A stretch of 64,000 nt of DNA from Perkinsus olseni. Its lineage: Eukaryota > Perkinsozoa > Perkinsida > Perkinsidae. Location: NCBI GenBank assembly GCA_013115135.1, contig JABANP010000155.1, positions 40,345-104,344 of the forward strand, given 5' to 3'. The position numbers were made by a program, and so were the translations under genes. Under the pieces are notes generated by a model. The model worked only from the letters and a program-made list of their open reading frames with translations. It searched no databases and was not told the origin of the DNA. Positions 57,562-64,000 of this stretch are shown here, one piece after another. The number at the start of each line of letters is the position of its first letter. Position 1 is the first letter of the stretch.

Positions 57562-57890
57562 TGATGAGACCGAAGACTGTCTCATAGATGACCCGCTTCC
57601 CTCTCGTGTAGGGATGCGCATCTCTGTTGCTACTGGTGTCTCAGCTGGTGTTCGACGTCCCCGCCGTTACTGGTCGTCAGGTAGGGTCTGTGGCGTGCGC
57701 AGGTCTGGCGCCCTGGATATCCTATGGGACGGTTCCGAAACGGCTGGCTGCGAAACTGTCCGAGTTGATGATGCCGAATTTAAAGTGTTGCGATGAGTTG
57801 CATGCTCAGTATTATTCCGTATATAAACCGTAGCCATCTTGGCTCAAGACCTTAGTTGGGTTTTTGCGTTTCCCCAATTAGGATCTAACA
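57562..57890 (+). repeat. 5' LTR
   Basis: 329 bp, TG...CA. Contains GTATATAAA at 57819-57827 followed at once by a full 22-nt spliced-leader match (57827-57848), so the presumed transcript start (R region) lies there. An open frame 57614-57796 inside the LTR matches the C-terminal extension of pol. Confidence 0.93.
57827..57848 (+). promoter_or_regulatory. Spliced-leader sequence inside the LTR
   Basis: 22 nt beginning ACCGTAGCC and ending TTGGCTCAAG, identical (from memory) to the Perkinsus spliced leader and one base from the dinoflagellate one. It is followed by ACCTTAG rather than a GT donor, so it is not an SL RNA gene but a copy of a trans-spliced 5' end. It sits right behind TATAAA. 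Confidence 0.85.
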
Positions 57891-57901
57891 TGGCGACACC
57901 T
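57891..57901 (+). promoter_or_regulatory. Primer-binding site for tRNA-Ser(GCU)
   Basis: TGGCGACACCT directly follows the LTR. It is the exact complement of the last 8 nt of the tRNA-Ser(GCU) encoded at 23.8-24.8 kb (AGGTGTCG) plus the added CCA: 11 consecutive pairs. The gag start codon overlaps the LTR/PBS border (ATG at 57890-57892). Confidence 0.85.
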
Positions 57902-59257
57902 TCCGACGAACTCCAAGCGGCAAGAAGCCAAATCCGTCAATCCAAGCGTGCACTCCGTGACACTCGTGAGAAGTTGAAGAACATCCTCGACGACGAGACC
58001 GACGACACCAAGAAGATTATCAATGACCTTCAGGTTAAAGAAGTCAACCTGACCAAGTGCATCGAGGAACTCGAGTCCCGCATCGCTGAACTCGAGCTGT
58101 CCATCGACAACGAGCGTTCACAGATCGCTCGACAAGAAGGCCGGTCGAGAGTTGCGCTTCCGACATCCCCAACAGCTGAGAAGCAAAACAAGCATGCTAT
58201 TTCATTATTCATGTCCGCCAGCGAGCATGAGCAAGACGACAAACGTGACGACGACATCGACAACCACGAGACTCCCTCGAAGATACTCTCGTCCGCCTCC
58301 TCCGACCAGCTTACCGCGGCTGACCTTGGCGCTCTCTCGGTACCGTCGCTTCAGACTCCGTCATGCATTGGTGCCCATCTGTCCTTGCTGGAACAGCTCT
58401 TCCAGGAGGCCGGTGCTGGTACGATCAGCTCTGGTGTGTTCATACCCTCATGGACATCTGCGCATCACTGTGTACAACAAACTGCTCGAGAGCGTCCAGT
58501 CCTGCGAGTTGGTATCGAGTGTCATTCACGACATCGCCCAGAACAGCGAGTACAAATGGTCCGTGATCAAGGCTGAACTACAGCAGGAGTTTGCCCGTCG
58601 AGACCTTCTCAAGGCTGAGTACAACGCGGTCATGAGGTCTCTCTCCTTCTCTGGCCTTGGCACTGTGGAAACCTTCTTGCGAAAGGCCCTGGCTGCCTTT
58701 CGCATGTACCGTACTGTGTACGGCTCTGACCGGGCTGAACTGCGGTCCATGACTAGATCCGTGGTCATGAAACTGCCAGAGAAGCTCCGGATATGTGTGG
58801 TTCAGAGTCTGCAGAGTGAGAAGGTTGGTAGTGGTGACTGGGAACTTGCCTTGCCGTTTGATGATACCAGTGGTCGTCCGTCTGTGATCTCTGTCATCAG
58901 ATCTAACTGTCGTACCTTCCGAGATGCTGGTGTCTCTCTCGACAGTCATCATGGTTCCAACAACAACAACAGCAACCGTAACCACAACAACGGCAAAGGC
59001 TACCACAACTCTACCGACCGAGTAGCTCAAGTATCTGACGGTAAAGGTGGTCGTGGCGAGTCTCTCTCCAAATGGGCTGGCCGCTTCGCGGCTGTATTTG
59101 TCGTTACTGGTCCCGGAGTCGCAGGCTCTCCCGAGAATCACGTCCAGTACGACGATGCTCGACACTACCCCCGGAAAGATGGTAACGGCGTCATCTGGTT
59201 TCTGGCCTATAAGGATGAGGAGAATGGTTCCAAGATCATCGGCGACCTCTCCAGTGA

Positions 59258-62200
59258 CCAGTTCGAGACCAGGAGGTTCGAGTTCCGTACCAGACGCCTC
59301 ACATCTACCCCGGCACCGTCAAAAAACTAAGTAGGCCTGATGCTGAGGTTCGCGAAACACCTCTGCATCCTGCCGGCCTATCCACTGAAGTTTCGCAATC
59401 CGTCTCTCCTCCAGTTAGCGAGGATAGTGTCCTTGCTCTCTCGTCTGCTACCATTCCGCCCGAGATTCTGCTGCGTGGTGCCCTTCGTTCCACATCGTCT
59501 AGCACTTGGGACTCTGCCGTTGACGTTCCCGTTCTCGTGGACTCTGGCGCTGGTGGCAACTATTTACTTGTGTGTGATACCGATGCTGACTCTCTCATTC
59601 ATAGTTCAGGCGCTCTATTCACCCCGTCCAAGAGCTCCGGCCCAGTGAAGTCAGTGTCCCTTGCCGATGGCTCCCGTCGTACCATCAGCAAGTCCGTTGA
59701 TGTCACTATCGGTATCTACCCAGTCGGCTCGTGTGGTCGCGAATCCCTCGTCGGTCAGCAGCAGGTGACTCTTAGCGTGCTCCCCGTCTCACCTTGTCCT
59801 TTTCTCCGTCCAGGATCTTGGTGTACGCTCGCTGGTCGCAGTCTGCTGGCGCTCTGGGATCTGACTACCAAAGGCTCGACTTATGCTACCATAGGCGACG
59901 TATGTGTCTTCCGTACAAGCTCTCCCGATGACCGTGCTTCGGAGACTCATACCCCCTGTCTGGCACTCTGTGACGATTCTGACGGCCCCGACCTGTCATC
60001 GACTGGCGTGGAGATCCAGCCTTCCTGCGAGTCGACTCCTAGCTCCATCAGTGTTGTGCCGTCCGATGACATCGTCCACCGTATTGAGCAGCTTCTTCAG
60101 CAGCTCTGTGATCAAGGATGGCGCCCTCTTGTGCGATGCCCGAGTGAAGCTCTCCGTGTCAAGCTCCGTCGTCTAGCTCCTCATGAACCCCATGACACCG
60201 ATATCCAAGCCTTCTGTTTCACCGTCGACCTCTCCGCCTTCGACAAGTCGAAGGTTGGTCCACAGCGAGGCTACGCACGAGGGCTTTATAACCGTCTATC
60301 GAGCGCGGATAGGGAGACCTATGCGCGGCTCATAAAGGACTACTTGGACCGAGGATGGTGGTCTTCCGTTGAGAAGTGTCAGCTGAACCGTATCGCTGAC
60401 ATCTCGCCGCCAATTCCCGTTTTCATGATCGGTGGTTCGTCATCAAAGTCTTCTGCGACCGTGAAGAAGCCCAGATTAGTCTTGGATTGCCGAGCCATCA
60501 ACGAAGGACTCCCGTCAACCAGTAGTGAGAACCCTAGTGGCTCACTGATCATCAATGCTCTCCGCTGGTCTTCCCCCGTCGCCATAGCGAGCATTGATGC
60601 ACAGCAGGCGTTTTATCGCCTGCAGGTAAGTGGTCTCACACTGCTGCTGGTGAGTGCCCTCGGATGCTATACCAGCCGTCGCATCTGCTTTGGTCTCTCC
60701 CCAGGAACGTCTTCCCTACAATCCTCGTTGGGAACCCTCTTCTTCCTTGTGACCTACCTCTACATCAGTGGTTTCTGGAGCCTATATGTTGACGATGGCA
60801 TACTGTCCGGGTCCGTCCGTCACCTCGTCTACAACCTCACTGTGCTGGTCTATGCCATGCTCCTCTGCGGCTTCGCGGTGCAGTTGGCCAAGTTCGCATG
60901 CATATGCGAGCCCTCTCATGCAGCAGAACTGAGTGAGTCTCTCAAGCCTCTCGGAACCGTGCCTTCAGAGTCTCTCTCGCTCCTGCGTACTTCGCTCTGC
61001 TACCGCCCTGGCTCTCTCGTACTCCACTGCTGTCGTGAAGAACGTCTCGACCGTGTGTACAAGTTTGCCTGCTCTGATACCATCTATCAGCTCTCCAAGT
61101 CCGCGGCATTTTCCTATGCTGGTGCCCTCTCGTATGATGTGGGAAGAGTCCATCCAGAATGCCGAAGCTGTTCGGATGGCATCCGATCGTTGCTGGGTCG
61201 CTGCTTGGCAAAGCAAGGGTGGCAGACCGTGGTCAATCTCCGGTGTCAGCTGACCGCTCCTCAACTAGCCGCCTACGACTACTTCATCCGATGGATGAAA
61301 GAGCTCTCCTCACCGTCTGCTGCCAAGTGCTCGCACTCTACCCCATGCCCGTCAAATGGTGAACTACCCGACCTTACCCTCGTGACCGACGCCTCTCGTT
61401 CCGGTGGTGGTTTCCTGATACTTCGCGGCTCAGTGGAGGGCGGGAGCGAGACTGGTCTCGCAGATCTTCCGATGCTCTGCGCTGATGGGTTCCGGTGGAG
61501 TAGAGTACAGAGGCACTACCACTCCAACCGTCGAGAACTACTGTCATTGGTGGTTGGACTCCGCGCCTGTGCCGACTTGGTGTGCCACTACTTCACCAAC
61601 TCGAAGGACTCATCTGCTTGTGGTTCTCGCCGCCGACCCAAGGTGCATGTCCTCTCTGACAACAAGGCCGTCATCCACTGGTCTCGTGAGGATGCCCCCG
61701 CCTTGTTCAACAGTGGCCAAGCGCTGGAGAAACGAGCTCTCACTCGCCTTGTCCTGGTGGCAATGGACGAGCTGAAGGCTCTAAAACGTCATGCAGATAT
61801 CGAGGTGAGACACGTTGAGGGTCGTATTAATGTCCTGGCTGATAGACTGTCACGTTTATACGATAGTGTGATAGCTCCCGGGATTACTTTGAGTGACGTT
61901 CTCTGTGACGATCTTCCGAACTCTACTCCCGTGTGGCCAGAGGAATCCGATGATGACATCCGTTTCCTCTCTGTGGAGTCGTCAGTCGAGCCGCTCACTC
62001 ATTGCTGTGATCCTTACACCCGTGATCGCCTGCTTCTCTTCCGTCACTGCGAGCAGAACGCCGGTGATGTCTCACTCGATCTGCGAACTGATTTTATTGG
62101 TCTTGTAGCTAGCTCTCCTTTCGAAGTATCGCCGTGCTTCGTGGAACATATAGCTACTCAGTGTTATGATTACTCGACCGCGTTGTCGCGTGTCCGCTGT

Positions 62201-64000
62201 CTCCGTTTCATCCTTCGCCTTCTCCGTGCGAATGCTGTAGGAGCGGACCTATCGGTCATCGAGTATTCAGGGGTGCCTTGCGACGCCGACAAGCGTGCCC
62301 TGGTCTGCGCTGCTCAGCGACACGACGAGTTCTGTTCTTCCACCCGGTCTCGCGGCCCTCCACCATGTGGCCCTTATGTGGTGTCTGATGACAGTGACCT
62401 CGATATTCCCTTGGTCTTGTTCCGATCCGGCAGTCCTTTCGGCAGCGAAGTCTTCCAGTACGTACTCCCCAAGTCGGTGCCCAAGCTCCGTGAGAAGGTA
62501 CTGAAGGACGCCCACCTCCGTTCGGAACATCTGACCGTGAGGCCTACTCTGTCACTGGTGGTCGATTACCATCTCCCTGGTGCCACCCGTCAATGTCGTG
62601 ATCTTCTGAGCAAGTGCATTACCTGTAAAACTCTCCGAGCTCGGCGGTCGTGGTCCTCGCTTCCATCGGTCCGCAGCGAGGCAGCAGCTCTCGCTCACCT
62701 ACCTCCGTACTGGCATGTCTCGGTGGACTTCCTGGCCGTTGGCAACCACGTCAAGCTGTTCAGTGCGGTGTGCATGTTCACACGTCACATCACACTCTTC
62801 CGTGCCAAGTCGGAGACGAGCGCGGAGGCGTTGCGGCTGCTGAAGCTCCTCAAGGCGAAGACTGGCTCTGTTCGCATTGTGACTTGTGACCGAGCCGCCT
62901 ACTTCAGGTCGACCGATCAGTTCGTTCGACGCGTCGAGTCGGAGCTCGAGGCTAGTGTTTGCTTAGCCTCAAGCAGATCCCCGTGGGAGATCTGCTCGGA
63001 ATCACACAATGCAATTGTGATCGACCGTCTTCGATGTATGCTTCGACACAGTTCTGGTAAGTGGCCTTCTGACCGTGATGATGAAGACCTGCTGCTAGAG
63101 CGTCTAATGTCAATCATCAATTGTCGTCCGCTTGGCACCTTCCTGATCAGTCAAGGTTCTGCCGAAGTCGTCACTCCCGACAGCCTCTACTTCGGCCGGA
63201 CGAGAGACGGTGGTGGTTCTCTGAGTGGTTCGAGGCCCACTTCAACTGATCACTCCCATCTCATGCCGAACCGACTGAAGACCTTCCGTAACGTCTTCCT
63301 CAGCTCGGTGTGGTCAGAGCTCAAGAAGCGGTCTCTCACCAATGTGTCTTCCAAATGTAAGAACGGTCACGCCAAGCCTCAGGTATTCTATCCTGGTGAT
63401 GCGGTGTTGGTCCACATGACTGGCCGCAAGTGCGGTATGGCTTTCCGCATGGGCCATGTGGTCCGTGTCTTCTCTCCTAGGCGTGTCCAAGTCCGATTCC
63501 CTGGTGGCCTCTTGACATACGAGAACGCCTTCAACTTGGTCATTCTACGTCCCTTCCCAAGGCTTGACTCCGACGTTCCTGTGGTGTCACGTGAAGGACT
63601 CCGTCTACGAGTACGGGATGACCAGGCGGTTGGTCAGTGGCGTTCTGGCGTCGTTACTCATGATCCTTGTGATCTTGATGACGACCGGGTTTGGGTACAG
63701 TTCGACAATGGTGATGCTCCGAAGTTCATCTCCTTCAGCACTTGTCGATGGCAACCCTTAGACGAGAACATCAACAACAAGGCCGATGATGATGATGGTG
63801 CTCGCGTGCCCTCGCAAGGGGGGCGTGATGAGACCGAAGACTGTCTCATAGATGATCCGCTTCCCTCTCGTGTAGGGATGCGCATCTCTGTTGCTACTGG
63901 TGTCTCAGCTGGTGTTCGACGTCCCCGCCGTTACTGGTCGTCAGGTAGGGTCTGTGGCGTGCGCAGGTCTGGCGCCCTGGATATCCTATGGGACGGCTCC
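59258..64000 (+). CDS. pol: Pol polyprotein: protease, reverse transcriptase, RNase H, integrase
   Basis: Open without a stop for 1581 codons to the window edge. Protease: VLVDSGAGGN near 59525-59560 (DSG active site). Reverse transcriptase: KPRLVLDCRAINEG near 60468, IDAQQAFYRLQV (60592) and active site SLYVDDGILSG (60780-60810). RNase H: LVTDASRSGGG (61381), HSNRRELLSLVVGL (61520), VHVLSDNKAVIHWS and VEGRINVLADRLS. Integrase: zinc region HLRSEHLTV...CITCKT (62510-62640), then the core with D in VDFLAVGN (62725), D in CDRAAYF (62888) and E in ESHNAIVIDRLR (63000). The C-terminal part (PGDAVLVHM, MGHVVRVFSPRRVQVRF) resembles a small beta-barrel binding domain. It is probably translated by -1 frameshift from gag. 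The frame continues into the 3' LTR; judged from the 5' LTR it should end about 60 bp beyond the window. Confidence 0.93.
59321..59327 (+). promoter_or_regulatory. Programmed -1 frameshift site, gag to pol
   Basis: Heptamer A AAA AAC in gag frame (codons TCA AAA AAC), directly followed by the gag stop TAA 59328-59330. A -1 slip gives AAA AAA CTA, which is the pol frame. It is the canonical retroviral slippery pattern X XXY YYZ. A downstream stimulatory structure was not evaluated. Confidence 0.82.
63815..63825 (+). promoter_or_regulatory. Polypurine tract
   Basis: CAAGGGGGGCG immediately before the 3' LTR; the place where plus-strand DNA synthesis should start. It is also coding (pol frame). 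Confidence 0.75.
63826..64000 (+). repeat. 3' LTR, first 175 bp
   Basis: Matches 57562-57736 with two substitutions (GATGATCCG against GATGACCCG; GACGGCTCC against GACGGTTCC). Continues beyond the window. Confidence 0.93.

Follow-up and report, generated by a model that had tools for sequence, protein, structure and literature searches.

Why should the long terminal repeat (LTR) of a retrotransposon contain the spliced leader (SL) that Perkinsus adds to its mRNAs by trans-splicing? This question is raised by one locus of the window analysed here, a stretch of 64,000 nucleotides at the end of contig C63, and was followed genome-wide in searches of the 61.5-Mb assembly. Queried with the dinoflagellate 18-mer, the window returned one place at up to three mismatches, the leader at 57827 with a single mismatch (0.05 expected). 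The initial annotation had recognised 22 nt at 57827-57848 as the trans-spliced leader, and this sequence (ACCGTAGCCATCTTGGCTCAAG), lying 41 nt before the first ATG, is identical to the 22-nt leader of P. marinus given in the available part of the published account (PMC9399869). The 22-nt extent is exact at this locus, but the part constant among families comprises only 21 nt (CCG...AAG): the base preceding CCG is A in the window and in two other copies read of the same family (family A), T in most of its copies, and T, G, A and C at 38, 6, 4 and 1, respectively, of the 49 exact sites described below that were not assigned to SL RNA gene contexts. As had also been remarked, the window leader runs on into ACCTTAG and not into a splice donor, whereas GTAAA stands at this point in 20 of the 20 SL RNA gene sites read, which sets the window copy apart from an SL RNA gene. 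A GT does follow the leader in families C, D and J, yet never as GTAAA.

Placement of the leader inside an LTR was confirmed by a direct repeat, with positions 57562-57736, the first 175 bases of the 5' LTR, recurring at 63826-64000 with 99% identity. All features of the element lie on the plus strand. From this repeat, together with family alignment, primer binding site and flanks, the 5' LTR was placed at 57562..57890 (TGATGAGACC...GATCTAACA), comprising U3 upstream of the leader (57562..57826), the leader copy as the proposed start of R (57827..57848), and, by family alignment, the remaining R plus U5 (57849..57890). A probable primer binding site (PBS), TGGCGACACC, overlaps the first ATG at 57891..57900, and the same or nearly the same motif is found behind the LTR in families A, B, D, F and G and in leader-less relatives. 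At the other end, the polypurine tract AAGGGGGGCG (63816..63825), which resembles tracts at other 3' LTRs, precedes a 3' LTR (63826..64000) in which the contig ends within U3, before the leader. The TATA-like element that had been linked to the leader is present in the window's family, where TATATAA (57820..57826) directly abuts it, but the link is not general: by eye, no TATA-like box at a common distance was seen in the 60 nt before the leader of the other groups, some of which have AT-rich sequence there (e.g. TATATGAT in family F and ATATAAAAG in family C).

Downstream of the 5' LTR, a frame in the position of gag (57890..58573) takes the first base of its ATG from the last base of the LTR; it is interrupted after 228 codons in the window copy, extends over 478 codons in another copy, and has no gag domain match. 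The pol frame (59258..64000), open to the contig end and assigned from Pfam matches and reverse transcriptase (RT) relatives, contains an RT with a YVDDG motif upstream of a zinc-binding region (~62480-62635; Pfam H2C2, 3.5e-5) and an integrase core (~62705-62935; rve, 3.6e-4), both matches falling below the curated cut-offs. In family D, a protease (4e-7, above cut-off) is followed by RT (0.003) and then integrase (0.0017), the latter two below cut-offs. The protease-RT-integrase order of family D, to which the integrase behind RT in the window conforms, the paired, TG...CA-bounded LTRs (in family A, those of the window, C584 and C856), and a PBS and polypurine tract identified by position and by sharing between families are features of Ty3/gypsy elements, and on these grounds the elements are probably Ty3-like LTR retrotransposons bearing pol. 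They would depart from Ty3/gypsy elements in that R appears to begin with a host leader and in that target duplications, three pairs of which were read by eye, look 3 bp long (C856 CTT, which could be 4 bp; C156 CTA; C249 TTA), compared to 4-6 bp in Ty3/gypsy. Short RT pieces are 25-65% identical to the window RT. Among the 8000 candidates with the most shared words, which were scored, the closest outside relatives of the RT part were proteins of P. chesapeaki (64% identity, covering 64% of the query) and P. marinus (41% identity over the whole query), which makes Perkinsus the likely host; a PDB sequence search with pol returned nothing useful.

Genome-wide, the 21-mer CCGTAGCCATCTTGGCTCAAG was found at 85 places exactly and at 199 places with up to three mismatches, both counts including SL RNA genes, compared to 0 and 2 places for the reversed control; this search resolved 100 of the 199 places individually. 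SL RNA gene contexts account for 36 exact sites (C268 20, C41 5, C270 4, C586 3, C871 3, C16 1), of which the 20 read all continue into GTAAA and 16 (C268 11, C270 3, C871 2) were assigned by spacing. The remaining 49, every one of which was read, are spread over many contigs and fall by blast into 11 clusters (A 12; B 12; C 3 with F 2; D 6; E 4; J 3; G 2; I 2; and the single sites H, K and L). Families C, D and F are partly similar and were therefore pooled, such that 46 of the 49 sites belong to seven or more LTR/retroelement groups that cannot be aligned with one another (A, B, C/D/F, E, G, I, J), outside of which lie H, K and L. An exact leader occupies both LTRs of pairs on C856, C584, C156, C249, C438 and C714, and both LTRs of a pair carry the leader in families A, D, E, F and G. 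Some family B copies are preceded by a polypurine tract and followed by a PBS, families C and I have the preceding polypurine tract, and in family J the leader comes after a frame that matches integrase weakly. The leader is in sense orientation wherever direction could be judged. Leader copies in LTRs thus exceed chance and are spread more widely than the window locus alone.

In copies of six families (A, B, D, E, F and G) the first ATG lies 23-69 nt past the leader, and it opens 176-499 codons in the copies L045, L066, L040, L017, L019 and L020, some of these frames running off the stretch read. Short frames are opened in the one copy tested from each of families C (25 codons), I (22) and J (136), and also in L002 of family B (36), L039 of family D (67) and L054 of family E (31).

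Several further loci were encountered in the same survey. On C289:1-7473 (L034, minus strand), two leaders lie 46 bp apart, a slightly altered one at the position typical of family E and an exact one at the head of a 798-aa frame whose RT match falls short of the Pfam cut-off; this is perhaps a non-LTR element or a stacked leader. Two lone exact leaders (L041:1501, and L058 on the minus strand at 572) are tied to no known LTR family and are possible retrogenes; the former is followed by CCATCT, which resembles the leader's inner part in decayed form. An SL RNA-like sequence with one leader base changed and GTAAA behind the leader is present at both C113:350-560 (L104) and C131:49420-49640 (L105); these may be variant or defunct SL RNA genes. 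Finally, a frame resembling FAE1/type III polyketide synthase (2.6e-49) adjoins a family D LTR at L007 (2-1174, minus strand).

Given that families were found through exact leaders, retention of the leader was examined in searches from which it was omitted. With the window U3 alone as query, 33 matches were obtained in the genome, 12 of which (including L078 and L079) do not reach the U3 end and were excluded. Among the 21 family A copies reaching the last five U3 bases, 20 keep the leader, so that the refuting outcome named in the initial annotation, other family members lacking it at this place, did not come about: 12 are exact, seven have 1-3 mismatches and one has a 1-nt deletion, while in the remaining copy (L075 on C251) the leader has gone together with part of R. 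The family B U3 gave 34 matches; six fall short of the U3 end and were excluded, and the 28 copies read (27 reaching the U3 end plus C48) retain the leader at up to three mismatches in 24 cases (12 exact, 12 with 1-3) and in decayed or broken form in four. For family D the query was the sequence after the leader, and 8 of the 9 matches reaching its start have a recognisable leader, the other 11 of 20 matches covering only the far end and being excluded. In family E, where 18 of 20 U3 matches reach the U3 end and two were excluded, the leader follows U3 in 17 of 18, the exception being an inverted U3 fragment on C228 (L117) with no leader at its end; family C keeps it in 3 of 3 copies.

The window RT, used as query, gave 114 matches in the genome, and six of these loci were sampled upstream on contigs without a listed exact leader, a choice that yields no fraction of leader-less elements. 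Three (C267, C952 and C43) have the PBS motif, preceded by 299, 415 and 576 nt, respectively, in which no leader occurs; on C685, 71 nt are visible before the PBS, and on C468 and C551 the PBS motif was not found upstream of RT. As three related RT elements are without it, the leader is not obligatory. The coexistence of leader-bearing and leader-less RT lineages also means that the leader may have been taken up several times.

Decay of the leader takes various forms, including a deletion within it (L115), loss of six bases (L094), breaks inside it (L095 and L098), five mismatches (L097), and a merely degenerate leader in L103 of family D. Outside family E, changes were recorded at base 1 in 5 loci, at base 2 in 2 and at base 13 in 6, three of these last sharing flanking sequence. 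A clustering of changes at the first leader bases, where RT might fail to read the cap end, was considered and rejected, the changes outside E showing no clear concentration there and being spread along the leader. Likewise rejected was a heritable CTCGAG variant in L081 and L090, whose shared flanks make segmental duplication likelier, L084 being separate. One family A locus (L069, C291:40230-40380) has a leader that lacks one base and is identical to the published 21-nt P. marinus leader from its second base on. This LTR is the single exact place in the genome for the 21-nt short leader, and the assembly therefore contains no SL RNA gene encoding it; as evidence of a second leader type the locus was set aside, a 1-nt deletion being equally likely.

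While the U3/leader border is fixed, the border between leader and R moves. Family B usually has the order leader-TTCTGAATTG...CCCTCAAGGGAG-CGGAACACC (leader|TTCTG..GGGAG|CGGAAC), and in L057 the leader is joined straight to CGGAACACC (leader|CGGAAC), a junction found once in the genome. Similarly, the usual leader|GTCTCAG|TGTACG of family D is replaced by leader|TGTACG in both LTRs of L040 and in L059. Every shift ends directly after an AG, although an AG precedes only 3 of the 65 break points possible in B and 6 of the 88 in D. The shifts amount to two or three events in all, L057 being a single LTR. L059 has a base in common with three GTCTCAG-bearing copies, while L040 has that of the other four, which suggests, from one site and a weakly supported tree, two separate events. 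Such AG-exact shifts are the expected trace, after reverse transcription, of another round of trans-splicing at a later AG. Deletions at AG microhomology are an alternative way to read them; the R of family B, however, holds a CTCAAG repeat, unused in the L057 shift, which would have been the likelier site of a repeat-mediated deletion. A deletion in R of the family E copy L116 neither starts at the leader end nor ends in AG.

Two readings had been offered at the outset, namely that trans-spliced element RNA was copied into the LTR, or that the element starts transcripts mimicking trans-spliced mRNA. The AG-exact shifts favour fixation of the leader through trans-spliced RNA. We hold it marginally more probable than its negation that RNA of these Ty3-like elements is SL trans-spliced by the host and that the leader is preserved as DNA in the LTR, where it forms the start of R, which suggests that the elements may use host RNA splicing in their copying cycle. 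Starting from the position, spread and exactness of the leader, the AG-exact shifts beneath an unchanged U3 and the position of the first ATG, we infer trans-splicing of element RNA, docking and strand transfer on the leader, and a benefit in capping and translation. RNA would be transcribed from U3 or upstream, and the host would join its leader at the AG ending the LTR-borne copy, leaving the product unchanged, or sometimes at a later AG instead. The capped RNA would be translated from the first ATG past the leader. Minus-strand strong-stop DNA, ending in the complement of the leader, would then land on the leader copy of the 3' LTR in the first strand transfer and be extended through U3, such that the leader would be rewritten into both LTRs in each cycle and a shifted splice site would give a shifted LTR. 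Weighing this trans-splicing cycle down are a leader variant shared by 13 of 17 family E LTRs, the lack of tandem relics, the three leader-less RT relatives, the short frames opened by the first ATG in some copies and, outside family E, the lack of a clear concentration of changes at the first leader bases. More tentatively, and with somewhat less than even probability, the host spliceosome may itself supply R: each genomic RNA would receive a fresh leader, the 3' LTR leader would serve as a universal landing site and any downstream AG could found a new LTR, so that a host-renewed leader would remain identical across otherwise unrelated LTRs. Small inverted repeats were seen by eye exactly between U3 and leader in four family A and B loci (L077, L093, L094 and L096); they may mark where strong-stop DNA ends and is transferred.

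Direct initiation at the LTR-borne leader, which would have been introduced on one or a few occasions through reverse transcription and then maintained by selection, is a serious rival, if on the whole an unlikely one. The leader sits where R should begin, and family E is more readily accommodated by it: the leader starts with CCG in 4 of 17 LTRs and with CTG in 13, a C-to-T change at the second base of the 21-mer (one of the 13 is cut by a contig end and one has an inner deletion), which is the only leader change common to many insertions. Paired E LTRs share CTG; base 2 therefore stems from the LTR rather than from the cellular leader, and this requires that strong-stop DNA stops before the RNA end is reached or that RNA starts within the LTR. 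Also in favour of direct initiation, tandem leaders, sought as products of inner-AG use of the kind known from dinoflagellates, occur at 0 places in the genome at up to two mismatches. On the other hand, initiation at the leader does not predict leaders at downstream AGs (L057, L040, L059), and no common promoter spacing was seen among the groups. Nor did the proposed alignment of U3 with sequence upstream of SL RNA genes yield any likeness beyond shuffles, the best of 17 comparisons (L040 of family D) being unconvincing since 10 of 200 shuffles equalled it.

It is improbable that the leader is a passive relic, fixed in ancestral elements by reverse transcription of trans-spliced RNA and inherited without function. 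SL relics in reinserted dinoflagellate cDNAs are known, as described in the available parts of two reports (PMC3229502, PMC6050394), and the lone sites L041 and L058 may be of this kind; exact leaders, however, are present in every group though the LTRs have diverged beyond alignment, an argument weakened by the groups themselves having been found by exact-leader search. Less probable still is that the leader DNA holds a promoter motif aiding transcription of the insertion, as the accessible text of one report proposes for the TTT(G) motif of DinoSL relicts in dinoflagellate retrogenes (PMC6050394), given that the sequence here is TCTTGG and not TTTTGG and that the AG-exact shifts would be left unexplained. 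Assembly artefact or chance, to which the truncation of the window's 3' LTR by the contig end might point, has a negligible probability in view of the exact 21-mer at 49 non-SL-gene places on many contigs, the empty reversed control and the leaders in both LTRs of pairs.

Known systems resemble the present elements in part. Cassandra elements of plants, according to the sections available of PMC10853983, likewise have a host non-coding RNA sequence in the LTR that is kept matched to the host copy, but this is 5S rDNA sequence with an internal promoter in a non-autonomous element; here, a spliced leader exon without donor occupies that place in the LTR of elements in which pol is present. Dinoflagellate SL retrogenes similarly hold a trans-spliced leader brought into DNA by reverse transcription, and differ, in the available portions of the reports, in that the leader heads dispersed gene copies and tandem relics are truncated at an inner AG (PMC3229502, PMC6050394, PMC12014239). 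The leader described here is instead found in both LTRs of mobile elements, with 0 tandem relics, and that of the window lies in an LTR ahead of a pol-bearing element and does not tag a retrogene. In Echinococcus, solo LTRs of TRIM elements also interact with SL trans-splicing, in this case through an LTR-started transcript cis-spliced to a former SL acceptor, and the part of the report available mentions no leader in the LTR (PMC4558846). A published spliced leader inside an LTR was not found among the matches listed in searches of freely accessible journal papers.

If the favoured reading is true, SL trans-splicing would be an integral step in the replication of a mobile element. It would provide the terminal homology that usually comes from the LTR element's own sequence, and element RNA would gain a host cap together with the leader. 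Because host mRNAs would then share their 5' end with the element, this arrangement could also help to explain how RT comes to copy host mRNAs into retrogenes in protists that use spliced leaders.
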